Positions 6,076 to 20,157 of a stretch of 64,000 nucleotides of DNA are shown here, piece after piece. The position numbers and the translations under genes are program-made. The stretch comes from Leekyejoonella antrihumi (GTDB lineage: Bacteria > Actinomycetota > Actinomycetes > Actinomycetales > Dermatophilaceae), in NCBI RefSeq assembly GCF_007845645.1, contig NZ_VCQV01000010.1:1-64000 (forward strand), in the 5' to 3' direction. Position 1 is the first letter of the stretch; the number at the start of each line of letters is the position of its first letter. The notes beneath the pieces are model-generated. The model searched no databases. It saw only the letters and a program-made list of their open reading frames with translations, and was not told the origin of the DNA.

Positions 6076-7596
6076 TCAGATGTCGGAAAGGATGAGGTCT
6101 GACGCCTTCTCGCCGATCATGATGGACGGCGCGTTGGTGTTGCCGCGCGGGATCGTGGGCATGATCGAGGCGTCCACGACGCGGAGTCCGCTGACTCCGA
6201 CTACCCGCAGAGCAGGGTCGACGACGGCGTGGTCGTCGACGCCCATCCGGCAGGTGCCGACCTGGTGGTGGTAGGTCCCGGCCAGTGCTCGGATCAACGC
6301 GCGGATCTCGTCCCTGGTCACCGGGGTGGTCTCTGGGACATATTCGGTGGGTCGGAACGGAGCGAACGCGTCGTGACCACCGATCTGACGGCACATGATC
6401 ACAGCATCTGCGAGCGCCTCGACGTCGTAGTCGTCCGCGAGGATGTTGGGATCCACGATCGGAGCTGTCGCCGGGTCGGCCGAGGCGACACGCAACGTGC
6501 CGCGTGAGCGTGGCGCCACGAGGCCCGGGGCAATGGTGTAGCCCTGTTCGGGCACGCGACCTCCGTCGGTGGGGTAGGGCAGGTGGAGGAAGAGGGGCTG
6601 TAGGTCGGGGGCGTCGTCATCGGCCTGTGAGGAGTGCGCGAAGAGCTGGGCCTCGAGCAAGTTGTTACGCCCTGGCACGAGCGGCTCCCCGGTGGCGTAG
6701 ATGTTGCCAACAAGCAGGTGGTCGTGCAGGTTCTTCCCCACTCCGGGCAGCTCGACCCGGCGTTCGATGCCTGCGGCGTCGAGATCGTCCCGGGCGCCGA
6801 TGCCGGAGAGCTGAAGGATCTTGGGCGAACCGATGGTGCCCGCAGACACGATGATCTCTGCCGCTGCACGCGCAATCTGGGTGCCGGCCGCAGTCACATA
6901 TTCGACGCCGATTGCGCGGGCGCCGTCAAGCACCAACCTCGTCACGAGCGCGTCCGTGGTGACGGTCAGTGCCGAGTTCTCCAGCACGGGTGCGACGAAG
7001 GCCTGCCAGGCACTGTGCCGCCGGCCGTCCTTGATGGTGGCGTGGTTGAAGCCGACGCCTTCCATCATTTTGGCATTGAAGTCCTCCGTGAGCGGATGAC
7101 CGAGCGCGACGGCGGCGTCGACGAATGCCTGCGACGCCGGGTGAAGGTTTTGCAGGCGGGAGACGTGCAGTGGCCCGCCGGAGCCATGAAACTCGGAGGC
7201 ACCGTCCTCGTGGTCCTCACTGCGCTTGAAGAGCGGTAGAACGGCATCCCACCCCCAGCCGGTATTGCCGGCAGCCGCCCAGGCGTCGTAGTCATCGCGG
7301 TGTCCGCGGATGTAGATCATGCCGTTCATGGAACTGGATCCGCCGAGCATCTTGCCGCGAGGCCAGTAAAGCGACCGATCTGCGGCGTGGTGCTGTGGAG
7401 TCGTCATGACCTTCCAGTCGTTGTCGCTCAGCAACAGCGCCGGCCAACCCTGCGGCGAATGAATGTTCGGGTTGGAGTCGACCGGCCCGGCCTCGATGAC
7501 ATGGACACTGTGGCCGGCGTCGAGCAAGCGGCGAGCCAGGACGCTGCCCGAGCTGCCAGCACCGATGATGATGTAGTCACTTGTCTGGTCTCCCAC
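6076..7596 (-). CDS. GMC-family FAD-dependent oxidoreductase (choline dehydrogenase-like)
   Basis: A 506-residue glucose-methanol-choline oxidoreductase. The N-terminal dinucleotide fold IIIGAGSSGSVLARRL binds FAD. GGSSSMNGMIYIRG and the C-terminal YHHQVGTCRMG and VVDASIMPTIPRGN blocks are the family signatures, with the active-site histidine in the C-terminal part. The open frame continues upstream to 7869, but that extension overlaps the divergent AraC gene and has no GMC homology. The GTG at 7596, preceded by AAGGAG, gives the conventional N-terminus. It is first in the minus-strand operon, 88 bp before the aldehyde dehydrogenase. It may oxidise an alcohol (such as an aryl-ethanol) to the aldehyde used by its neighbour; that substrate is a guess. 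Confidence 0.9.
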   Translation of the reverse strand: MGDQTSDYIIIGAGSSGSVLARRLLDAGHSVHVIEAGPVDSNPNIHSPQGWPALLLSDNDWKVMTTPQHHAADRSLYWPRGKMLGGSSSMNGMIYIRGHRDDYDAWAAAGNTGWGWDAVLPLFKRSEDHEDGASEFHGSGGPLHVSRLQNLHPASQAFVDAAVALGHPLTEDFNAKMMEGVGFNHATIKDGRRHSAWQAFVAPVLENSALTVTTDALVTRLVLDGARAIGVEYVTAAGTQIARAAAEIIVSAGTIGSPKILQLSGIGARDDLDAAGIERRVELPGVGKNLHDHLLVGNIYATGEPLVPGRNNLLEAQLFAHSSQADDDAPDLQPLFLHLPYPTDGGRVPEQGYTIAPGLVAPRSRGTLRVASADPATAPIVDPNILADDYDVEALADAVIMCRQIGGHDAFAPFRPTEYVPETTPVTRDEIRALIRALAGTYHHQVGTCRMGVDDHAVVDPALRVVGVSGLRVVDASIMPTIPRGNTNAPSIMIGEKASDLILSDI

Positions 7597-7630
7597 GGGC
7601 ACTCCTTCGTATGCTGGTGTTGCCACCACT

Positions 7631-7644
7631 GTGACGCACGTCAC
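7631..7644. promoter_or_regulatory. Palindrome GTGACG-CA-CGTCAC between GMC oxidase and araC-like gene
   Basis: An inverted repeat of two 6-bp arms around a 2-bp centre lies 34 bp upstream of the GMC oxidase start and 148 bp upstream of the AraC-type gene. The position in a divergent promoter region suggests a protein-binding site. The regulator is unknown; AraC proteins often bind direct repeats, so another factor is possible. Confidence 0.4.
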
Positions 7645-7791
7645 TCCGACCTCGCATTGGCGCCAGGCGCACGGCTGTGTGCATGGCGCGCACTGTCGCG
7701 TGCGCGTTGACCGGTGGCATGGTGAGGTGGTGATGCCCGTCGGAACACGGTCGGGCGCCGGGACCGCCCAGATGCGCAAGGAGGCGCAGAG

Positions 7792-8757
7792 ATGAGCACC
7801 GTCGGGCATGACGTGCAGGTATTCAGTGCGGCCTCGACCGCGCCCGCCGACCGATTCGAGGCGTGGCAAGCGGCGGTCAACGCCACGTTCGTCCCGCTGC
7901 GCGCCATGGTTCGGTCCGCGGATGGATACCAGGGCGGCCTGCTGGCGCAGGACCTCGGAGAGGTCACCGCGACGGAGGTCGGCGGGTCCCCGGTGACGGT
8001 GCGGCGGGACAAGGCGTCAATCGCCGCATCGAACCCGGGGGTCTACAAGCTCGGGCTACAACTGCACGGGTATTGCATACTCTCCCAGGACGGCCGAGAG
8101 GCGGCTCTGACACCGGGTGATCTGGCAATCTATGACACGACCCGGCCCTACACGCTGGACTTCGCAGAGTCGTATCGGATGTTTGTGCTGCTGATCCCAC
8201 GCGACCGGCTGGGGCTCTCTCCCGAGCAGATCGGACAGCTCACCGCCGAACGCATTTCAGGTCGTCAAGGGCTTGGGGCGCTGACATCCACTCTGCTCGC
8301 ACAACTGGGCGCCCAAGTGCGATCCGGCGGGGCCGACACCGACCCCCGCGCCGTGGACGCCATCGTCGAACTGGTTCGTGCGGCCCTGAGTCAGCGGTTG
8401 GACCTGGCCGGAACGGTGCCGGGCGCGTCCGTCGTGTTCTCCGCGGCCACAGCATGGATCGACGAGCACCTGTCTGCGTCCGGACTCGAGGTCGAGGACG
8501 TTGCTCTCGCCCAGCACGTCTCGGTGCGATACCTGCAGAAGCTCTTCGCGGACCGTGGCACCACGCCCAGCGCATGGATCCGGCAGCGCCGTCTGCGGCG
8601 CTGCCGGGTGGATCTCCTGGATCCGGCGCTTGCCGCGCATCCGGTGGCAGCGATCGGGGCGCGCTGGGGGTTTGGCGATCCGTCAGGATTCGCCCGCACC
8701 TTCAAGTCCGGGACGGGGATGACACCGGGGGAGTTCCGAGCCACCGGCGGGGCCTGA
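7792..8757 (+). CDS. AraC-family transcriptional regulator (FeaR-like)
   Basis: A 321-residue regulator with an N-terminal AraC-binding-like sensor domain (about residues 10-180, including the cupin-type segment GDLAIYDTTRPYTLDF). The C-terminal AraC double helix-turn-helix spans about residues 215-320, with VRYLQKLFADRGTTPSAWI and the second helix in GFGDPSGFARTFKSGTGMTP. ATG 7792 follows AAGGAGG at seven bases. FeaR, the activator of tyramine/phenylethylamine oxidase genes, has the same architecture. The gene is divergent from the GMC-ALDH-permease-amine oxidase operon, which it probably activates in response to the amine or its aldehyde. Regulation is inferred from orientation. Confidence 0.88.
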   Translation: MSTVGHDVQVFSAASTAPADRFEAWQAAVNATFVPLRAMVRSADGYQGGLLAQDLGEVTATEVGGSPVTVRRDKASIAASNPGVYKLGLQLHGYCILSQDGREAALTPGDLAIYDTTRPYTLDFAESYRMFVLLIPRDRLGLSPEQIGQLTAERISGRQGLGALTSTLLAQLGAQVRSGGADTDPRAVDAIVELVRAALSQRLDLAGTVPGASVVFSAATAWIDEHLSASGLEVEDVALAQHVSVRYLQKLFADRGTTPSAWIRQRRLRRCRVDLLDPALAAHPVAAIGARWGFGDPSGFARTFKSGTGMTPGEFRATGGA

Positions 8758-8792: not shown

Positions 8793-9587
8793 TCACGTGC
8801 CAGGGATGGTGCCTCGGCGCGTCCAACGGGCGGTGAGCGCCTCGGACCCGCGAGCGACAAGTGCGACGTCTGCTCCGACGAGGATGAACTGAGCGCCGGC
8901 GTCGAGGTAGGACTCTGCCTGGGTGGGGTCGAACGCATTGACGCCAACCGGTTTACCCGCGGCTTTGACGGACTCGAACGCCCGCAGGACCGCAGCGATC
9001 ACCTCGGGGTGCATCTGCTGTCCGATCAGTCCCATCGACGCGGCCAGGTCGCCCGGCCCGACGAACACGCCGTCGATGCCGTCGACCGCCGCGATGGCGG
9101 CGGCGTTGTCGACGCCTTCGGCAGTCTCGACCTGGACGAAGAGCGCGACGTGGTCATCCGCGTCGCGCAGGTAGCCTTCCACGCGGCTCCAGCGTCCGGA
9201 CCGAGCAAACGCGGAACCTATCCCGCGCACTCCCCGCGGGGGGTAGTGCATTGCGGCGACGACATCGTGCGCCTGCTGCGGTGTAGAAACCATGGGGACC
9301 AGGATGTTCTGGGCACCCAGGTCGAGGACCTGCTTGATGGTCACACTGTCGCCGGACGACACGCGCACGACCGGCAGACTGGGGTATGCGGCGACAGCCT
9401 GCAGCTGCGCCAGGACCGATGCCAGCCCGTTGGGGGAGTGCTCCATGTCGATGAGCACCCAGTCCAGGCCGGCGCCCGCAGCGATCTCCGCCATGACTGG
9501 GCTGCCTGAGCAGACCCACATCCCGGCGAGCGGGCGGGTCGTCTCGGCGAGCCGGTGGCGGAAGGTCTGGGTCAGATGAAGCGGCAT
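8793..9587 (-). CDS. hpaI: 4-hydroxy-2-oxoheptane-1,7-dioate aldolase
   Basis: A 264-residue class II HpcH/HpaI aldolase. It cleaves 4-hydroxy-2-oxoheptanedioate to pyruvate and succinate semialdehyde, the last step of homoprotocatechuate meta-cleavage. The catalytic histidine is in LIDMEHSPN, and the divalent metal ligands are the glutamate in VQVETAEG and the aspartate in GPGDLAASMG. The ATG at 9587 overlaps the end of hpaH by 16 bp, which points to translational coupling. Convergent with the araC-type gene (35 bp between stops). The pathway assignment is strong because hpaH, hpaD and hpaE follow directly upstream. Confidence 0.93.
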   Translation of the reverse strand: MPLHLTQTFRHRLAETTRPLAGMWVCSGSPVMAEIAAGAGLDWVLIDMEHSPNGLASVLAQLQAVAAYPSLPVVRVSSGDSVTIKQVLDLGAQNILVPMVSTPQQAHDVVAAMHYPPRGVRGIGSAFARSGRWSRVEGYLRDADDHVALFVQVETAEGVDNAAAIAAVDGIDGVFVGPGDLAASMGLIGQQMHPEVIAAVLRAFESVKAAGKPVGVNAFDPTQAESYLDAGAQFILVGADVALVARGSEALTARWTRRGTIPGT

Positions 9588-10357
9588 GAGATCGTCCCCA
9601 GTTGTCGGTAGTCGGCGAGCACCGTGTCACCAGGGTGCACCCACATCGGGCGGGTGAAGGAACCGGCAAGCACGATCTCCCCGGCTTCCAATTGGTCGCC
9701 GTGCGCGGCGAGCTTGTTTGCGAGCCAGGCGACTCCGGTCGCGGGGTGGCCGAGCACGGCCGCGGCGACGCCCGACTCTTCAATGGTCTCGTTCCGGTAG
9801 AGCAGTGCCGAGACCCAGCGCAGGTCGACATCGGCGAGCTTCATCGGGTTCCCGCCGTAGACCATGGCGCCCATGGCGGCGTTGTCGCTGATCGTGTCGA
9901 CGATCGTGCGGCCCTCCATCTCGATCCGACTGGCGAGGATCTCCAGGGCCGGCACGACGAACTCGGTCGCGCGGAGCACATCGAAGATGGTGGCGTCAGG
10001 GCCCTTGACGGGCTCGGCCAGCACGAAGGCGAGCTCGACCTCGATGCGCACGTTCGAGAACCGATTGTGGTCGATGACAGCACCGTTGCTGAAGACCATG
10101 TCCTCGAAGATGGCGCCGTAGTCGGGCTCGGTGATGCCGGTCGCGACCTGCATCACCTTCGAGGTCAGACCGATCTTGCGCCCCACGGGCCGGCGGCCGG
10201 ACGCGATGCCGCGGCGCCGCCACTCCTGTTGCACGGCATACGCATCGTCAACGGTCATCCCGGGATGCCGTGTGGTCAGCAGCGGCACCATGGTGCGGTC
10301 GTGCTCGGCCTGGGCGAGCTCGTCGGCGATCGCGGCAATGGTCTCAGCGTTCAGCAT
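9572..10357 (-). CDS. hpaH: 2-oxohept-4-ene-1,7-dioate hydratase
   Basis: A 261-residue hydratase of the FAH-fold MhpD/HpaH (HpcG) family. It adds water to 2-oxohept-4-ene-1,7-dioate to give 4-hydroxy-2-oxoheptanedioate. Visible family blocks are [12 protein letters not shown], the metal-binding glutamates in [13 protein letters not shown] and the later segment [19 protein letters not shown] 10357 follows AAGGAGG. It lies between hpaD (102 bp upstream gap) and hpaI (16 bp overlap). The position and sequence agree with the homoprotocatechuate route rather than the catechol route. Confidence 0.92.
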
Positions 10358-10459: not shown

Positions 10460-11611
10460 TCACAGTTGGTGCCCGAGCTTGTACTCGCCCTGTTTCCAGG
10501 TGGGCATGTCCTCTTCGTCGCGGCGGGTGTAGGAGAACCCGTCGGCGCCGATCGTCACGTCCAGCTCGGAGGTGTCGGTGCGCTCGACGACCGGCTGTGG
10601 GTTGCCGTCGAGGTCGAGCACGAGGGATGCGTCGGTGTACCAGGACGGCACAACCGGGTTGCCCCACCAGTCGCGGCGCTGGTTGTCGTGCACGTCCCAG
10701 GTGACGACCGGGTTGTCCGGGTCTCCGGTGTAGTAGTCCTGCGTGTAGATCTCGATGCGGTGCCCGTCGGGGTCGCGCAGGTAGAGGTAGAACGCGTTGG
10801 AGACGCCGTGCCGGCCCGGTCCGCGCTCGATCGCGTCGGAGCGTCGCAGCGCGCCGAGCTTGTCGCAGATGGCGAGGATGTTGTGCTTCTCGTGGGTTGC
10901 GAATGCCAGGTGGTGCATTCGTGGCCCGGCTCCGCCGGTCATTGCAGTGTCGTGGACGGTCGGTTTGCGACGCATCCAGGCGGCATACACGGTGCCGTCC
11001 TCGTCCTGGATGTCCTCGGTGACTCGGAAGCCGAGGTCTTCCATGTAGGCGACGGCGCGTGGCACGTCGGGGGTGACCTGGTTGAAGTGGTCGATGCGCA
11101 CGAGCGAGCCGGGGGTGTAGAGGTCGTAGCGCCACGCCAACCGGTCTACGTGCTGCACGTCGTAGAAGAACTCGTAGGGAAACCCGAGGGGGTCCTCGAC
11201 ACGTACGGATTCGCCGACGCCCCTGGTCCAGCCTTCTTTTCGGCGCTCGACGCGGCAGCCGAGCTCGGTGTAGAACGCGACGGCGTTGTCGAGGTCCTGC
11301 GGGCTGCGCACCCGGTAGGAGAACGCGGCCGCCGCGGCAACCGGCCCCTTGCGCAGGACGAGGTTGTGATGGATGAACTCCTCGAGCGTGCGCAGGTAGA
11401 CGGCCTGGTCGTCCTCCTCGGTGACGACCAGGCCCAGTACGTCGACATAGAAGTCGCGCGAGCGTTTCAGGTCGGTGACAACGAGCTCCATGTAGGCACA
11501 CCGCAGCACGTCCGGCGGTGGCGCCGACGGGGTCGGTATCGCGTTGCTCGCCCGGATGGGGCTGGTTGCGGTGACGACGGGCTCGGGGGAGCCGGGGGTG
11601 ATCGTGCTCAT
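10460..11611 (-). CDS. hpaD: 3,4-dihydroxyphenylacetate (homoprotocatechuate) 2,3-dioxygenase
   Basis: A 383-residue type I extradiol dioxygenase with two pairs of vicinal-oxygen-chelate modules. It opens the ring of 3,4-dihydroxyphenylacetate to 5-carboxymethyl-2-hydroxymuconate semialdehyde. The sequence is very close to the Brevibacterium fuscum enzyme, including RMHHLAFATHEKHNI, RGPGRHGVSNAFYLY and HRIEIYTQDYYTGDPDNP. The three metal ligands are the histidine in VRIDHFNQVT, the histidine in RMHHLAFA and the glutamate in RIEIYTQ. The N-terminus is about 20 residues longer than the Brevibacterium protein. ATG 11611 lies 3 bp after the hpaE stop with GGAGG upstream. Iron versus manganese use cannot be decided here. 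Confidence 0.96.
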   Translation of the reverse strand: MSTITPGSPEPVVTATSPIRASNAIPTPSAPPPDVLRCAYMELVVTDLKRSRDFYVDVLGLVVTEEDDQAVYLRTLEEFIHHNLVLRKGPVAAAAAFSYRVRSPQDLDNAVAFYTELGCRVERRKEGWTRGVGESVRVEDPLGFPYEFFYDVQHVDRLAWRYDLYTPGSLVRIDHFNQVTPDVPRAVAYMEDLGFRVTEDIQDEDGTVYAAWMRRKPTVHDTAMTGGAGPRMHHLAFATHEKHNILAICDKLGALRRSDAIERGPGRHGVSNAFYLYLRDPDGHRIEIYTQDYYTGDPDNPVVTWDVHDNQRRDWWGNPVVPSWYTDASLVLDLDGNPQPVVERTDTSELDVTIGADGFSYTRRDEEDMPTWKQGEYKLGHQL

Positions 11612-13187: not shown

Positions 13188-13901
13188 TCATGGGGCGATG
13201 ACGTGCCTGTCGAGTGATGCGCTGGTCGGCGCGCCGGGGTGCTCGACGGCCAGGAACGCCGCCAGCGTCGCGGCGCGGTGCTCCCGGGCTGCGGCCTCGA
13301 CCTCCGCCACGGGGGCCCGGTCCTCGATGAGCCGCAGGATGGTTTCGTGCTCCTGCACCGATCCGCGCGCCCGCCCAGGGACGAAGGAGAACGTCGAGTC
13401 GCGCAGGTTTCCCAGCCGGCCCCACTCGGCCGTGACCAGGTCGAGCAGCCGCGGGTTGGGGCAGTGGGTGAAGAGCATGGAGTGGAACTGCTGGTTCTGC
13501 GCGGTGAACGCGTGCGGGTCGAAGTGCTCCAGACCCTGGGTCATCTGCGTGTTGACCTGGCGCGCCGCACGGACGTCCTCAGGCGTCATCAACTGGGCGG
13601 ACAACGCGGTGGCCGCGCCCTCGAGGATGCCGAGAGTCTGCATGCTGTGCCGGTACTGCGTGTCATCGACCATGGAGACGTGCGCCCCGACGTTGGGCTC
13701 GTAGGTCACCAGTGTCTCGGCCTCGAGCCGCCGGATGGCTTCGCGCACCGGCACAACGCTCATCTGAAGCTCGCCGGCGATACGGCCCAGCACCAGCCGG
13801 TAGCCGGGGGAGTATTCGTTCCGGGCGATTCGCTCCTTGATGACGTGGTACGCCACCTGTGACTTGCTCTGAGCGGGGGCAGTGCGTGGGGTGTCACTCA
13901 T
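13188..13901 (-). CDS. GntR-family (FCD/FadR subfamily) transcriptional regulator
   Basis: A 237-residue regulator. The N-terminal winged helix-turn-helix (about residues 12-80) contains VVPVREAIRRLEAETLV, a GntR recognition region. The all-helical C-terminal FCD ligand domain follows (about 90-220), with the metal/ligand histidine region in QFHSMLFTH. ATG 13901 overlaps the end of the FAH-RraA gene by 8 bp, and hpaE begins 52 bp downstream. Embedding inside the hpa operon suggests it senses a pathway intermediate and represses the operon. A candidate operator is the palindrome at 15426-15439. FCD proteins usually bind small carboxylic acids. Confidence 0.88.
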   Translation of the reverse strand: MSDTPRTAPAQSKSQVAYHVIKERIARNEYSPGYRLVLGRIAGELQMSVVPVREAIRRLEAETLVTYEPNVGAHVSMVDDTQYRHSMQTLGILEGAATALSAQLMTPEDVRAARQVNTQMTQGLEHFDPHAFTAQNQQFHSMLFTHCPNPRLLDLVTAEWGRLGNLRDSTFSFVPGRARGSVQEHETILRLIEDRAPVAEVEAAAREHRAATLAAFLAVEHPGAPTSASLDRHVIAP

Positions 13902-15381
13902 GGTCGGTGTCCGCTAGGTAGCGTTGCCGCCACTCGGAGTTCATCGGGAACAGTCCCTCGATCGGATGCCCTTCGGCAACCTGCTGCGCGACCCAGGCGT
14001 CCTCATCCTCCTTCGCCAGCGTCGCGTCGACGACTTCCTCGGCGATCGACGGAGGGATGACGACGACGCCGTCCCGGTCGCCCACGATGATGTCGTGGGG
14101 CTGCACGGTGGCACCCCCGCAGGCGATGGTCAGGTCGAAGTCCCATGGCACGTGCTTACGGCCCAGGACCGCCGGGTGGGCTGCCTTGGCGTAGACGGGA
14201 ATTCCGATCTCGTGCACGGCGTCGTAGTCGCGCACGGCGCCATCGGTGACGATGCCGGCGGCTCCGCGCGTCTTGGCACGCAGCGCCAGGATGTCGCCGA
14301 GGGTGCCGGCGCCGACCTCTCCGCGGGCCTCGATGACCAGGACTTCCCCCGAGTCGACCGCGTCGAACGCTCGCTTCTGGGCGTTGTACCCGCCACCGTG
14401 GGAGGTGAAGAGGTCTTCTCGGTTGGGCACGAACCGCAGCGTCTTTGCCGTGCCGACGAGCTTGGCCTCCGGCCGCAGTGGCTGGACTCCGTCGATGAGG
14501 ACGTTGTTGAGGCCGCGCTTGCGCAGCTGGGCGGACAGGCCTGCCACGGGGGCCTTCTCGAGCTTGGCGCGCAGCTCCACTGACAACGCGGGCGCCTGTT
14601 CCGGTAGGCCGGCCGCCTCGGGCGAGCCCCATGCGGCCACCCGTTGCGCGTCGTCTGCGTGCGGCAGCGAACCGAGGCGCTCGTCATACGCCGGATGCCG
14701 GCCGGCGGTCACGGTGGTCGCGAGCCGTCCGGAGGTTGGCGCGCCCGGCGCGGTGGGAGCGTCGACCTCAACCTCCACGACGTCGCCGGGCACGACGACG
14801 CCTGACCCGGCAGGCGTGCCCGTGAGGATCACGTCACCCGTTTCGAGCGTGAGGTGCTGTGACAGATCGGCCACGAACTGAGGGAGGGGAAAGAGCAGAC
14901 CCGCAGTGGTGTCCTCCTGTGCCAGAGAGCCGTTCACCCACGTGCGCACACGAAGCGTGCCAGGGTCGACACTGCGTGCGTCGATCAGGTCCGGCCCGAT
15001 CGGCGTGAACCCGTCCCCGCCCTTGGAGCGGACGTTCGAACCCTTGTCGTTCGCCCGCAGGTCGTAGAGCCCGAAGTCGTTGGCAGCGGTGACCGATGCG
15101 ACGTGATCCCAGGCGTCCTCCAGGGACACGCGCCTGGCCGGGCTGCCGATCACCAGGGCGATCTCGCCCTCGAACGCGAGCAGCTCGGTGCCACCCGGAC
15201 GCTCGATCGTGCCACCCGATTCGCCGACCGAGCTCGACGGTTTGAGGAAGTAGGAGGGGTGCTCAGGGCGCCGGCCACGCTGGTCGGCGCGCGAGGCATA
15301 GCTGAGATGCACTGCGATGATCTTGCCAGGGCGGGCACTGCGACCGCTGGTCCTGGTCTCATGGTCGATCTGCTCGGACAC
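13894..15381 (-). CDS. FAH-family isomerase/decarboxylase fused to an RraA-like domain
   Basis: A 495-residue two-domain protein. The N-terminal part (about residues 15-240) is a fumarylacetoacetate-hydrolase fold of the HpaG type, with YFLKPSSSVGESGG, the metal-binding FEGEIALVIG, NDFGLYDLRANDKGSN and VILTGTPAGSG. The C-terminal part (about 280-480) is an RraA/4-hydroxy-4-methyl-2-oxoglutarate aldolase-like domain. Its substrate/metal block GTLGDILALRAKTRGAAG and DGAVRDYDAV look intact. HpaG normally has two FAH domains that decarboxylate and isomerise the HpaE product; here the second is replaced by an RraA domain. The GTG at 15381, preceded by GGAGAG, is preferred over the 27 codons upstream, which cover the operator region. 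It is first in the hpa operon. The reaction of the RraA half is unknown; aldolase or decarboxylase are the family options. Confidence 0.85.
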   Translation of the reverse strand: MSEQIDHETRTSGRSARPGKIIAVHLSYASRADQRGRRPEHPSYFLKPSSSVGESGGTIERPGGTELLAFEGEIALVIGSPARRVSLEDAWDHVASVTAANDFGLYDLRANDKGSNVRSKGGDGFTPIGPDLIDARSVDPGTLRVRTWVNGSLAQEDTTAGLLFPLPQFVADLSQHLTLETGDVILTGTPAGSGVVVPGDVVEVEVDAPTAPGAPTSGRLATTVTAGRHPAYDERLGSLPHADDAQRVAAWGSPEAAGLPEQAPALSVELRAKLEKAPVAGLSAQLRKRGLNNVLIDGVQPLRPEAKLVGTAKTLRFVPNREDLFTSHGGGYNAQKRAFDAVDSGEVLVIEARGEVGAGTLGDILALRAKTRGAAGIVTDGAVRDYDAVHEIGIPVYAKAAHPAVLGRKHVPWDFDLTIACGGATVQPHDIIVGDRDGVVVIPPSIAEEVVDATLAKEDEDAWVAQQVAEGHPIEGLFPMNSEWRQRYLADTDHE

Positions 15382-15439: not shown

Positions 15440-15518
15440 GCAGAATGCTCAGCAACCGTCACTGAACAGACCGTGCTGAGGATGACGACTCACGACGAAG
15501 GCTCAGGTGAGAGGACCC

Positions 15519-17426
15519 ATGCAGTTTCACCACTACGGCTACGTGTCCGGAGATCCGCGCGTCAGTCGCGCTGCGGCGGCCGGCATCAACCGTCCGCTCG
15601 AGCTGCCCGATGAGGTCGATGTGCTCATCGTCGGCAGCGGACCCGCCGGCATGCTGCTGGCTGCACAGCTGTCGCAGTTCCCGAGCATCACGACACGCAT
15701 CATCGAGCGGCGTCCTGGTCGTCTCGAGATCGGCCAGGCGGACGGCATCCAGGCCCGCAGCGTCGAGACCTTCCAGGCCTTCGGCTTCGCCGACCAGATC
15801 ATCGCCGAGGCCTACCGCATCACGTCGATGAGCTTCTGGGCGCCGGACCCGGCCGACCCCGGCTGCATCATCCGGACCTCGCGGGAGGTCGACGACGCGC
15901 ACGGCATCAGCGAGTTCCCGCACCTCATCGTCAACCAGGCACGCGTCCTGGACTACTTCGCCGACGTGGCGGCGGCCTCGCCATCCCGAATGAGACCGGA
16001 CTACGGACTGGAGTGCCTTGACGTCACGGTCGGCGACCCCGATGAGATGAGCCATCCCGTCACCGTGACGCTGCGGCACACCGCCGGTGAGCACAACGGT
16101 GAACAGCGGCGGGTTCACGCCAAGTACGTCGTCGGCTGTGACGGAGCCCGCAGCAGGGTCCGTGATGCGATTGGCCGCCGGATGACCGGGAGTCAGGCCC
16201 TGCACGCGTGGGCCGTGATGGACGTTCTGGCGGTCACCGACTTCCCCGACATCCGCACCAAGTGCGCCATTCAGTCGGAACACGGCAGCATCCTGCACAT
16301 TCCGCGGGAGGGCGGGTACCTGTTCCGGATGTATGTCGATCTGGGGCAGGTCACCGAGAACGACAAGGGCGCCATCCGGGCGACGCCGGTCGAGGCAGCG
16401 ATCTCGAAGGCGAACGAGATCCTGCACCCGTACACGCTGGACGTGAGGGACGTCGCCTGGTACAGCGTGTATGAGGTCGGGCACCGGTTGACGGACAAGT
16501 TCGACGATGTGCCGCAGGGCGAGGCCCGGACGCCGCGCGTGTTCATCGCGGGGGACGCGTGCCACACGCACAGCGCGAAGGCCGGCCAGGGCATGAACGT
16601 GTCGATGCAGGACGCCTTCAACCTCGGTTGGAAGCTGGCCCACGTCCTCGACGGCCGCAGTCCGGAGTCCCTACTGTCCACCTACTCGGCGGAGCGGCAG
16701 GTCATCGCGAAGAACCTCATCGACTTCGACAAGGAGTGGTCCACGCTCATGGCGAAGGCGCCGGAGGAGTTCGACGACCCGAAGGCGCTCGGCGAGTTCT
16801 ACACGGCGACAGCGGAGTTCCCCGCCGGATTCATGACCGAGTATCAGGCATCGCTGATCGTCAGTGACACGCTCCACCAGGAGCTGGCGGTCGGCCTCCC
16901 GGTCGGCAAGCGTTTCAAGTCAGCGCGGGTGGTGCGGGTCGCAGACACAACTCCGCGCCAGTTGGGGCACCACCATCGAGCGGACGGTCGCTGGCGCATC
17001 TACGCGTTCGCGGATCGGCCCGGTCCGGGAGAGGGGTCCCAGCTGACCGACTGGGCCACGTGGCTCGGCGAGGCACCCGAGTCGCCGCTGCTCGCCTTCA
17101 CCCCCGAGGGTGCCGGCGCTGACAGCGTCTTCGACGTCAAGGTGGTGTATCAGCAGCAGTTGGAGCAGATCGAGCTGGGCCGTGTTCCGCAGATCTTTCT
17201 GCCCCGCAGCGGTCCGTTCGAGCTCATCGACTACGAGAAGGTCTACGGCACCATCCCCGGCGAGGACATCTTCGACGTGCGCGGCATCGACCGCTCGGGC
17301 TGCGTCGTCGTCGTGCGACCGGACCAGTATGTCGCCGCGGTGCTTCCCCTGACCAAGACTGCAGCACTGACAGCGTTCTTCAGTCCCATCATGCTGCCCC
17401 AGCGAGCTGTGGCTGTCCAAGGCTGA
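15519..17426 (+). CDS. mobA: 3-hydroxybenzoate 4-monooxygenase
   Basis: A 635-residue class A flavoprotein hydroxylase that converts 3-hydroxybenzoate to protocatechuate with NADPH and O2. It matches Comamonas MobA closely: the N-terminal MQFHHYGYVSGDP, FAD fold DVLIVGSGPAGMLLAAQL, YVVGCDGARSRVR (DG motif) and RVFIAGDACHTHSAKAGQGM (GD motif). It also has the MobA-type C-terminal thioredoxin-like domain ending in VVVRPDQYVAAVLPL. The chosen ATG at 15519 gives the MobA-like N-terminus with GAGAGGA upstream; a GTG at 15507 would add four residues. It is divergent from the hpa operon and followed by an MFS transporter 44 bp downstream. Product feeds the pca genes further right. Confidence 0.93.
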   Translation: MQFHHYGYVSGDPRVSRAAAAGINRPLELPDEVDVLIVGSGPAGMLLAAQLSQFPSITTRIIERRPGRLEIGQADGIQARSVETFQAFGFADQIIAEAYRITSMSFWAPDPADPGCIIRTSREVDDAHGISEFPHLIVNQARVLDYFADVAAASPSRMRPDYGLECLDVTVGDPDEMSHPVTVTLRHTAGEHNGEQRRVHAKYVVGCDGARSRVRDAIGRRMTGSQALHAWAVMDVLAVTDFPDIRTKCAIQSEHGSILHIPREGGYLFRMYVDLGQVTENDKGAIRATPVEAAISKANEILHPYTLDVRDVAWYSVYEVGHRLTDKFDDVPQGEARTPRVFIAGDACHTHSAKAGQGMNVSMQDAFNLGWKLAHVLDGRSPESLLSTYSAERQVIAKNLIDFDKEWSTLMAKAPEEFDDPKALGEFYTATAEFPAGFMTEYQASLIVSDTLHQELAVGLPVGKRFKSARVVRVADTTPRQLGHHHRADGRWRIYAFADRPGPGEGSQLTDWATWLGEAPESPLLAFTPEGAGADSVFDVKVVYQQQLEQIELGRVPQIFLPRSGPFELIDYEKVYGTIPGEDIFDVRGIDRSGCVVVVRPDQYVAAVLPLTKTAALTAFFSPIMLPQRAVAVQG

Positions 17427-17470: not shown

Positions 17471-18919
17471 ATGGAAACGACATCGCCGACCAGCCCGCGG
17501 TCGCGCAGCGGTCCAGGAATCATCGCCCGGCTCGAGCGGCTGGAGGGATGGTCCCTGTCGTACAGATTCATCGCCATCATCGGGCTCGGCTTTCTGTTCA
17601 CCTTCTACGACATCTTTGACATCAACGTCTCCTTCATCCAGACCTGCGTCGAGCTGAAGAAGGGGTGCACGCCCGAGACTGCACTGAACTCACTACCGCT
17701 GCCCGTGGTGCTGAACCTGGTCGGCTATGTGATCGGGACGCTGGTGCTGAGCCCCATCGCCGACAAGATCGGCCGCCGGAACATGTTGCTGATCACGATG
17801 CTGATCACCGGGCTCGGCTCGCTGTACAACGCCTTCGCCCCTGACTACGCCAACTTCGTGATCGCACGAGTCATTACGGGCGTGGGCATCGGTGCCGACC
17901 TGGCGATCGTGAACACCTACGTCAACGAGGTCGCGCCGCGCAAGGCCAGGGCGAAGTTCACGACGATGATCTTCATCAACTCCGCGCTGGGTGCTCTCGC
18001 CGGCATCTGGCTGGGGCTGATCCTGACCACCGCGAAGGAGAACTGGCCGCTCGGGTTGCCTTTCGCCCAGGCAAGTCCATCGTTCGACAACGGCTGGCGC
18101 TGGATGTACGGCATCGGCGCCATCCTGGCATTGGTTGCGATCCTGCTGCGGTTCGAGCTGCCCGAGTCGCCTCGCTGGCTGATCGGGCAGAGCCGGATGG
18201 ACGAGGCCGATGCCATCGTGCGACAGATGGAGCAGCGGGCCCTCAAACGAGGTGAGCTCGCCGAGCCGGACTACGACATACCGCAGGAGGCGGTGACCCC
18301 GCCGTCCCCCGTCCCATACACGACACTGTTCACGAATCCGCTCTACCGGCGGCGCATCCTGGTGCTGTTCGCACTCTGGTTCATCGGCTATATCACCGTC
18401 TACTCGTATGCCTCCGGCTTCACCAGTGTGTTGTCCGCGTTGAAGTACCCACCGCCGGAGGCCGGTGTGATCGCCGCTGTCGGGACCTTCGGGTTCGTCG
18501 GGATGACTATCCTGATGACCTTCATCGTCGAACTGCTCGAGCGTCGCTACTGGCTACCGATCGCCGCCGTCGTCACCCTGATAGGTGCGGTCCTGATCGC
18601 CGCGGCGGGCTCGACAATCGCGATCGCGTTCATCGGATCGATCCTCATCTTCGCCGGATTCAACATGTGGGTGTCTCCGACGTATGCCATGTCGGCGGAG
18701 TCTTTTCCGACGCGGGCTCGGACCAGCGGGTTCGCGCTGGTGGACGGTGTCGGACACGTGGGCGGCGGGATCGGCGTGCTGGCCATTGCGCCCGTGCTGC
18801 CACACATGTCCACGCTGGGCGCCCTGATGCTGATCTCCTCCTTCTTGGTAGTCGCCGCGATCATCGCCCAATTCACTCCGCATACCAGGGGTCGTAACCT
18901 GGACCACATCTCGCCCTGA
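17471..18919 (+). CDS. MFS transporter, probable aromatic acid uptake
   Basis: A 482-residue major facilitator with about 12 transmembrane segments. The signature loop between segments 2 and 3 reads ADKIGRRNMLLITML. The central loop LPESPRWLIGQSRMDEA, a sugar-porter/metabolite-symporter signature, lies before a cytoplasmic segment of about 50 residues. ATG 17471 lies 44 bp after mobA, and the gene ends 7 bp from the convergent pobA stop. Uptake of 3-hydroxybenzoate or a related acid is inferred from the neighbour mobA. Confidence 0.87.
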   Translation: METTSPTSPRSRSGPGIIARLERLEGWSLSYRFIAIIGLGFLFTFYDIFDINVSFIQTCVELKKGCTPETALNSLPLPVVLNLVGYVIGTLVLSPIADKIGRRNMLLITMLITGLGSLYNAFAPDYANFVIARVITGVGIGADLAIVNTYVNEVAPRKARAKFTTMIFINSALGALAGIWLGLILTTAKENWPLGLPFAQASPSFDNGWRWMYGIGAILALVAILLRFELPESPRWLIGQSRMDEADAIVRQMEQRALKRGELAEPDYDIPQEAVTPPSPVPYTTLFTNPLYRRRILVLFALWFIGYITVYSYASGFTSVLSALKYPPPEAGVIAAVGTFGFVGMTILMTFIVELLERRYWLPIAAVVTLIGAVLIAAAGSTIAIAFIGSILIFAGFNMWVSPTYAMSAESFPTRARTSGFALVDGVGHVGGGIGVLAIAPVLPHMSTLGALMLISSFLVVAAIIAQFTPHTRGRNLDHISP

Positions 18920-18926
18920 GCTCCCT

Positions 18927-20114
18927 CTAGCGGTCCGGCCACCCCGTGTAGCACTCGGCGAGGTAGGTCTGGCCCGCCACCGATGAGGTCACGGCCGTGA
19001 GTTCACCGATCTGGCGCCGCGCGTCGAAGCTGTCGGCGTTTGGCAGCTGGTGCAGCATCGAGGTCATCCAGAAGGAGAAGTACTGGGCCTTCCAGACCCG
19101 CTCGAGCGCGCGGGGGGTGTACTCCTCGATGGCGGTCGGGTCGCCGGCGAGTGCTCGCTCGAGGATCTCCGCGAGCACCACGACGTCGGTTAGCGCCAGG
19201 TTGAGTCCCTTGGCGCCCGTTGGGGGCACGGTGTGTGCGGCGTCGCCGGCGAGCAGCAGGTTGCCGTAGTGCATCGGCTCCTGGACGAAGCTGCGGAAGG
19301 GAAGCACCGACTTGTCCGTGATCCGCCCCTCTTTCAGGGTGAAGCCATTGGCCCCCACTCTGGCCTGCAACTCGGTCCAGATCCGGTCCTCGGGCCAGGC
19401 GGCGACGTCCTCGTGCGGGTCACACTGGAAGTACATCCGCTGCAGGGTGGGGGTCCGCTGACTGATCAGTGCGAACCCGCGCTCGGAGTGGTTGTAGATC
19501 AGCTCAGGGGCACTCGGTGGGGCCTCGCACAGGATCCCGAACCAGGCGAACGGGTACTCCTTGAAATAGTGCCGGCGCAGCTCGGACGGAAAGGTGTGTC
19601 TGGTCATCGAGTGGGCGCCGTCGGCGCCGACCAGGTAGTCGCAGCGCACCTCCTGGGCGCGTCCTTCTGCGTCGCGGAAGCCAATGCCAGGACGATTCGA
19701 GGTGACATCGAAGACGGTGACGTCGGTGACGCCGTACCGCACGTCGCCGCCGTCGCGCTCGCGCGCGGCAGCGAGGTCGATGAACACGTCGGTCTGTGGG
19801 TAGAGCTGCACCGAGGCATCGACCAGGTGCTTGAAGTCGATCCGATGGGCGCCGCCGTCGAAGGCCAGGGTGATGCCCTCGTGTTCGTCCCCGTCGCGCT
19901 GAACGCGGTCCGACACGCCGGTTTCGACGAGCAGCCGTACACTGTCGTGCTCGAGGATGCCCGCGCGGGGTGTTTCTTCGATCTGCTCGCGAGAGCGGTT
20001 GTCGACCACGACGGAGTCGATGCCGGCGAGATGAAGCAGGTGGGAGAGCATCAGACCGGCGGGTCCACCGCCGACAATGCCGACGCGGGTCTGAGTGGTC
20101 TGCGCGGATCCCAT
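18927..20114 (-). CDS. pobA: 4-hydroxybenzoate 3-monooxygenase
   Basis: A 395-residue class A flavin monooxygenase, the usual PobA length, converting 4-hydroxybenzoate to protocatechuate. Visible are the FAD fold RVGIVGGGPAGLMLSHLL, the pyridine-nucleotide/FAD DG block YLVGADGAHSMTR, and the GD motif LLLAGDAAHTVPPTGAKGLN. The C-terminal region RVWKAQYFSFWMTSMLH is PobA-specific. ATG 20114 gives the conventional short N-terminus; a GTG at 20150 would add 12 residues and abut the IclR-type operator at 20158-20172. It is transcribed in the same direction as the iclR gene upstream, and convergent with the MFS gene. Confidence 0.93.
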   Translation of the reverse strand: MGSAQTTQTRVGIVGGGPAGLMLSHLLHLAGIDSVVVDNRSREQIEETPRAGILEHDSVRLLVETGVSDRVQRDGDEHEGITLAFDGGAHRIDFKHLVDASVQLYPQTDVFIDLAAARERDGGDVRYGVTDVTVFDVTSNRPGIGFRDAEGRAQEVRCDYLVGADGAHSMTRHTFPSELRRHYFKEYPFAWFGILCEAPPSAPELIYNHSERGFALISQRTPTLQRMYFQCDPHEDVAAWPEDRIWTELQARVGANGFTLKEGRITDKSVLPFRSFVQEPMHYGNLLLAGDAAHTVPPTGAKGLNLALTDVVVLAEILERALAGDPTAIEEYTPRALERVWKAQYFSFWMTSMLHQLPNADSFDARRQIGELTAVTSSVAGQTYLAECYTGWPDR

Positions 20115-20157
20115 AGGTGCAGTCTCACGGTTCGAGGCCGCCGATGCCACGCCAGGC

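Follow-up and report, generated by a model that had tools for sequence, protein, structure and literature searches.

The window, the whole stretch of 64,000 nucleotides of Leekyejoonella antrihumi that was analysed, carries a compact minus-strand operon. It is headed by a gene that fuses a FAH domain to an RraA-like domain, followed by genes for a GntR-type regulator, HpaE, HpaD, HpaH and HpaI. The fusion and regulator genes overlap by 8 bases, the gaps to HpaE, HpaD and HpaH are 52, 3 and 102 bases respectively, and HpaI overlaps HpaH by 16 bases. The features are listed below.

13894..15381, minus strand: FAH-RraA fusion, 495 aa from the GTG at 15381; NF009399, 817.6 bits (cut-off 444)
14710..15324, minus strand: FAH domain, residues 20–224; PF01557 (FAA_hydrolase), 161.6 bits (cut-off 23.9)
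15076..15171, minus strand: FAH metal-ligand stretch E71, E73 ... D102, from alignments
14596..14739, minus strand: linker, residues 215–262, the least conserved part (mean majority identity 0.76)
14059..14538, minus strand: RraA-like domain, residues 282–441; PF03737, 117.5 bits (cut-off 24.5)
14227..14298, minus strand: G362-D363-X20-R384-D385, by alignment the counterpart of Gly101/Asp102/Arg123/Asp124 of 3noj
13188..13901, minus strand: GntR-type (FCD) regulator; PF00392, PF07729
11615..13135, minus strand: HpaE, CHMS dehydrogenase; TIGR02299, 648.2 bits (cut-off 638.35)
10460..11611, minus strand: HpaD, homoprotocatechuate 2,3-dioxygenase (1q0c type); TIGR02295, 429.6 bits (cut-off 321.4)
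9572..10357, minus strand: HpaH, OHED hydratase; TIGR02312, 353.6 bits (cut-off 351.5)
8793..9587, minus strand: HpaI-type aldolase; PF03328, 184.1 bits; TIGR02311, 309.7 bits (below the cut-off of 368.8)

HpaE, HpaD and HpaH thus pass their cut-offs, HpaI is recognized by PF03328 alone, and HpaF and HpaG are absent from the operon. HpaD also aligns end to end with a solved homoprotocatechuate dioxygenase (637.5 bits). PobA and a phenol-hydroxylase-type enzyme are encoded near the operon. No HpaBC-type hydroxylase was found in the genome.

The reading frame of the fusion is open from 15462 to 13894. An artefact or frame error was ruled out, since the frame is open and homologues have the identical layout. 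PF01557 and PF03737 each match one stretch, in agreement with the initial annotation, which had described a single FAH domain fused to an RraA-like domain. The GDILA...DGAVRD site that it had called intact-looking is present in the ORF as read. The RraA half also contains D-X20-R-D with the measured spacing, which we take to be the motif of the RraA / HMG-CHA class II pyruvate aldolases. In an alignment of 112 fusion proteins, for which the window's own copy had been removed from the 32 fusions beforehand, the RraA active-site motif was intact in all 112. E71 and E73 were kept in 111 of the 112 (one gap), and D102 and K120 in every one. The stretch E71/E73/D102 presumably binds metal, by homology to the HpaG C-domain. 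Mean majority identity was 0.84 in the FAH half and 0.80 in the RraA half. Both halves look conserved as enzymes.

An AlphaFold model of the fusion (mean pLDDT 72.6, pTM 0.47) agrees with both folds. Residues 107–124 of the FAH half have pLDDT below 50, so that the model is uninformative on the FAH site and on domain packing. Its structure matches were 5x15 (Z 27.5, 197 residues, 1.9 Å), 3noj (Z 22.4, 208 residues, 5.2 Å) and 1wzo (Z 21.8, 192 residues, 2.4 Å).

The fusion was compared with known families. The domain pair is not new. It is already catalogued over nearly the full length as NF009399 (PRK12764, “fumarylacetoacetate hydrolase family protein”), a name that carries no function, and is shared by a whole group of actinomycetes. 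The RraA half by itself scores 229.8 bits (cut-off 208) with NF006093 (PRK08245, “hypothetical protein”), a stand-alone RraA-like family without the FAH domain. Two relatives of this kind, from Rhizobium and Gemmobacter, lie outside hpa clusters, and their neighbourhoods gave no functional clue.

Like HpaG/HpcE (1gtt, 1i7o), the fusion lies beside hpaE, and its FAH half is 40% identical to the C-domain of the E. coli protein over 176 residues. However, the second domain of HpaG is another FAH domain, whereas in the fusion one PF01557 stretch is followed by PF03737. The fusion scores below both HpaG cut-offs, with 148.9 of 276.4 bits for TIGR02303 (HpaG C-terminal) and 99.9 of 228.65 bits for TIGR02305 (HpaG N-terminal). 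With HMG/CHA aldolase (3noj) and the RraA family the fusion shares the fold and the counterparts of Gly101/Asp102/Arg123/Asp124, whose numbering was counted along the alignment. It is below the cut-offs of the aldolase models NF006731 (91.8 of 179 bits) and TIGR02798 (79.9 of 304.5 bits), and the aldolase operon is different. The score for the RraA RNase regulator NF006875 is 57.3 bits, also below its cut-off of 136.

We searched for HpaF with a profile of 11 HpaF proteins. It had no match at E ≤ 1 in window ORFs of at least 50 aa and none in the ORFs of 31 fetched stretches and 80 named loci. PF02962 (CHMI/HpaF) matched neither the fusion protein nor its own genome, a draft that is 98.97% complete in 139 contigs, so that a gap may hide hpaF. 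The same model detected ten of ten HpaF proteins from two phyla with 95.5–161.9 bits (Pantoea, Erwinia, Rhizobium, Ruegeria, Pannonibacter, three Deinococcus, Bosea and Thioclava). Among the 31 fusion genomes it matched one (39.9 bits, cut-off 26.5), and no hpa genes were found in 19 kb around that match. Within these searches, hpaF elsewhere in the genome or in the flanks was rejected. The absence of hpaF between 8793 and 15519, as first read, therefore extends to the whole window by profile and to the genome by PF02962. The suggested check for a link between the domain pair and a lack of hpaF came out positive in 30 of 31 genomes.

TIGR02303 reached its cut-off in two of 14 controls but in no fusion genome (0 of 31), with matches below the cut-off in every fusion genome. 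In the genome under study there are six matches, none over the cut-off. One is the fusion, and the remaining five belong to other FAH genes that could contribute. Within this search, a standard HpaG elsewhere in the genome was rejected, and the fusion takes the position of HpaG, as had been proposed. The hpaG/hpaF pair elsewhere in the genome, named at the outset as a finding that would overturn the early reading, was looked for and not found. Of the 31 fusion genomes, 13 carry a PF01361 tautomerase; it was not found in the other 18. As a substitute it is possible in those 13 genomes and was rejected for the present one, where it has no match. HpaD was over its cut-off in three controls, Thermus composti, Deinobacterium chartae and Sulfolobus acidocaldarius. 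PF02962 matched no control genome, and NF009399 exceeded its cut-off in none. HpaF can therefore be missing without the fusion.

The spread of the fusion was determined in 394 actinomycete genomes, sampled evenly across the class and including the present one. The fusion was over its cut-off in 31 genomes, HpaD in 32, and both in 31. The Fisher p of this overlap, 3e-45, is uncorrected and is not a true probability, since the genomes are related and the present genome was not drawn at random. A single genome (G323) passes the HpaD cut-off without having the fusion. Its HpaE aligns only from residue 176 onward, and tblastn gave no trace of the fusion in 20 kb; its operon is read as a deletion remnant for these two reasons. 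Eight further genomes have an HpaD-like protein below the cut-off (238.7–294.6 bits) and no fusion over the cut-off.

HpaE and HpaD adjoin the fusion in all 31 fetched stretches, which come from 30 other genomes, one of them with two copies. HpaH and HpaI are also present in 22 of them. The titles of the 80 best named loci all give actinobacterial genera, and HpaE and HpaD were found at 76 of these loci. Of the remaining four, three are stretches of only 3.6, 6.9 and 14.0 kb; at the fourth (L189) the fusion is present and HpaE and HpaD were not found in 21 kb. A scan of one collection confirmed at least 537 relatives of the fusion; because its search patterns derived from actinobacterial fusions, it is of little use for judging other phyla. 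For single-domain matches in actinomycetes, the neighbourhoods offered no functional clue.

For comparison we used ten plasmid-borne hpaD neighbourhoods with HpaF from outside Actinomycetota. As only plasmid stretches were compared, a second FAH may sit on the chromosomes. Eight of the ten have HpaF with a single-domain FAH, and two have HpaF with a double FAH. The latter are the enterobacterial Pantoea and Erwinia (Erwinia by length and two aligned halves), whose HpaD is 78–79% identical to that of the window. Thioclava has a second single-domain FAH gene, further from hpaD. In Bosea and Thioclava HpaD is only 36–38% identical and the stretch has no annotated hpaE; these two may therefore serve another pathway. 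Thermomicrobium was excluded from the ten because neither HpaF nor FAH is annotated in its 11.5-kb stretch. The double-FAH HpaG, taken at first as the general rule, is thus the minority form here. The usual set in these neighbourhoods is HpaF plus a single-domain FAH, and in the actinomycetes it is one FAH plus RraA.

The co-occurrence with HpaD, the absence of HpaF and HpaG, the intact sites and the pairing of HpaF with FAH in neighbourhoods elsewhere together indicate that the fusion most likely does the work of HpaF and HpaG. It is very probable that the complete fusion accounts for the HpaF-HpaG segment. It would convert the HpaE product CHM (5-carboxymethyl-2-hydroxymuconate) to OHED (2-oxohept-3-ene-1,7-dioate), the substrate of HpaH. 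The domain anatomy, the operon, the conservation, the co-occurrence and, within our searches, the lack of HpaF and HpaG are observed directly, whereas this substrate and the division of labour between the halves are inferred. The same segment is covered in A. baumannii by OPETD, HHDDI and CHMI, which work best together according to the accessible portions of PMC12718150. That organism has two FAH proteins plus CHMI and no RraA. Without CHMI, decarboxylation there is slower but proceeds, and two FAH proteins are needed.

We aligned seven single FAHs and three fusions with HpaG of E. coli, Pantoea and Erwinia (D. grandis was omitted from the FAH alignment). The E-x-E pair is absent from the N-domain of the three HpaG proteins and is kept in their C-domain, in all seven single FAHs and in all three fusions. 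The alpha-proteobacterial FAHs differ at the third ligand position, D102, where they carry E and not D. The C-terminal domain of HpaG has been assigned as the decarboxylase on structure alone (PMC12718150, in the portions covered). Because the fusion keeps the E-x-E pair and scores better with the C-terminal than with the N-terminal HpaG model, we assign its FAH half as the putative decarboxylase.

By subtraction, the HpaF step would then be left to the RraA half, whose enolate-stabilising site appears suited to it. In HMG/CHA aldolase of P. putida, Arg123 is essential and stabilises the pyruvate enolate, and Asp124 binds metal, as described in the available part of PMC5065237. With a divalent metal, and with Arg384 to stabilise the enolate, the RraA half would catalyse the enol-keto isomerisation of CHM to OPET, and perhaps also the conversion of HHDD to OHED. 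The FAH half, with the metal ligands of the HpaG C-domain, would decarboxylate OPET. Tethering would let labile acids pass between both sites, and HpaH would then hydrate OHED. HpaF (PF02962) carries out the step proposed here for the RraA half. Where the fusion has a metal site, HpaF has the tautomerase proline.

On balance we favour the reading that the fusion is the actinobacterial replacement of HpaF plus HpaG in the meta-cleavage of homoprotocatechuate, in which the FAH half decarboxylates and the RraA half isomerises. The division of labour makes this statement less sure than the claim for the segment as a whole. Only tentatively, and at less than even odds, would we go further and propose that the RraA fold is a metal-dependent enol-keto isomerase of a new class, which took over from HpaF in evolution. 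Actinomycetes would then use a tethered isomerase-decarboxylase for homoprotocatechuate, with no CHMI-type isomerase and, in most genomes searched, no 4-OT-type one either. Under the favoured reading, a family that is catalogued but lacks an assigned function acts as a widespread non-orthologous substitute within a known pathway. The early suggestion that the RraA half took over a missing step is supported in part. The cluster comparison favours the HpaF step, but HpaF is also missing without the fusion, and the RraA half could conceivably act as a decarboxylase.

The segment would equally be covered if the halves worked the other way round, with OPET decarboxylated by the RraA half and the FAH half acting as tautomerase or isomerase. 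This is chemically fair because RraA-family enzymes decarboxylate and FAH-domain enzymes tautomerise. HMG/CHA aldolase has oxaloacetate decarboxylase activity (PMC5065237), the RraA-like FlDet is reported as a dehydratase/decarboxylase (PMC8563752), and oxaloacetate tautomerases are found among FAH-domain proteins (PMC10825186), in each case according to the part of the source that was accessible. In the literature covered, decarboxylation is described for the RraA family, and no description of an RraA protein as a tautomerase was found. We nevertheless consider the reversed order rather unlikely, since the FAH half is nearer to the HpaG C-domain, keeps E-x-E, and has as its single-domain counterpart a FAH that pairs with HpaF in eight of ten neighbourhoods. 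It is more doubtful still that the RraA half replaces the second FAH (the HHDD isomerase, or HpaG N-domain) while CHM isomerises spontaneously. Such isomerisation is reported in the accessible text of PMC12718150, where CHMI only speeds the cascade but neither OPETD nor HHDDI can be spared. Since A. baumannii thus needs two FAHs but not CHMI, a second FAH is what RraA may stand in for, and the three HpaD-bearing controls likewise lack a CHMI match. Against this, eight of the ten plasmid stretches carry HpaF with no second FAH beside the first, so that HpaF is the part usually kept.

The nearest solved relative is RraAS2 of S. coelicolor (5x15), described as an RNase ES inhibitor, and the RraA half could in principle be structural or regulatory, with the FAH half as the sole enzyme. 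We regard this as highly improbable. The metal/enolate motif is invariant in the 112 proteins, the RNase-regulator model falls short of its cut-off, and the hpa setting is constant. Least credible of all is an operon that degrades another catechol, with the fusion acting on a different acid intermediate. It would fit the nearby PobA and phenol-hydroxylase-type enzyme and the HpaBC-type hydroxylase not found in the genome. However, HpaE, HpaD and HpaH pass curated cut-offs and HpaD matches the solved homoprotocatechuate dioxygenase from end to end. Furthermore, the actinobacterium Arthrobacter sp. Rue61a grows on homoprotocatechuate, as well as on 4-hydroxyphenylacetate and tyrosine, and a meta pathway was proposed for it (PMC3534580, in the part available).

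What is new here is the co-occurrence of the fusion with HpaD and the absence of HpaF and HpaG; the domain pair itself was known, without an assigned function. According to the authors of PMC12718150, in the portions covered, it took until 2025 for the enzymes in the middle of the 4-hydroxyphenylacetate pathway to be assigned in full, in A. baumannii. Such a fusion is not mentioned in the accessible portions of PMC6498646 or PMC7118221. Titles and abstracts within open-licence scope gave no named fusion, and publication elsewhere is possible. Many actinobacteria that apparently degrade a tyrosine-derived aromatic acid have one uncharacterised fused enzyme where two separate ones are used elsewhere. 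There the known pathway probably runs through an uncharacterised enzyme type.

Four records of a plasmid collection match over 80% or more of the fusion, one from Rhodococcus, two of Arthrobacter type and one from Embleya. The fusion operon of Paenarthrobacter aurescens TC1 is on plasmid pTC2. A. aurescens TC1 is named as the closest sequenced relative of Rue61a in the available part of PMC3534580. Annotations of the fusion carry no function or, as on pTC2, read putative dimethylmenaquinone methyltransferase; the role proposed here, if confirmed, would supply a function for this widespread, nameless family.

The following genes flank the hpa cluster.

15507-17426, + strand: phenol-hydroxylase-family flavin monooxygenase, adjoining the fusion gene and divergent to it
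17471-20150: MFS transporter and 4-hydroxybenzoate 3-monooxygenase-type gene, adjoining the cluster
7792-8757, + strand: FeaR-like AraC regulator, downstream of hpaI (161.4 bits, under the cut-off of 199)
6076-7869, - strand: GMC oxidoreductase, downstream of hpaI

A match to HpaB (PF03241) was present in only 5 of the 31 fusion genomes, and none was found in the L. antrihumi genome. Therefore, the flavin monooxygenase at 15507-17426 may be the hydroxyphenylacetate hydroxylase. Relatives of this monooxygenase were found near the fusion in 54 of the best 80 named loci. The 4-hydroxybenzoate 3-monooxygenase-type gene scored 520.9 bits with NF006091, above the cut-off, and was under the cut-off of TIGR02360.

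Among the 32 actinomycete genomes with HpaD over the cut-off, a single one had no fusion. At this locus (L099, G323:C15), HpaD is present and HpaE is without its first 175 residues. The Isoptericola luteus locus (L189) carries the fusion, GntR, HpaH and HpaI; HpaE and HpaD were not found within 21 kb, which may reflect a deletion or else an assembly gap. One genome (G208; L063, L064 and L215) combines two fusion loci with the sole match to HpaF (CHMI, PF02962) among the 31 fusion genomes. That match is weak (39.9 bits), and no hpa genes were found in the surrounding 19 kb.

HpaD was also over the cut-off in the control genomes of Thermus composti, Deinobacterium chartae and Sulfolobus acidocaldarius. 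When these three were searched with the profiles, there was no CHMI match and no fusion over the cut-off.

Plasmids of Pantoea piersonii and Erwinia sp. E602 (L196 and L197) encode an HpaD with 78-79% identity to that of the window. The surrounding hpa operon is enterobacterial-looking apart from HpaD, whereas the E. coli hpa operon has an HpaD of another type. The plasmid HpaD thus appears to be a single-gene transfer.
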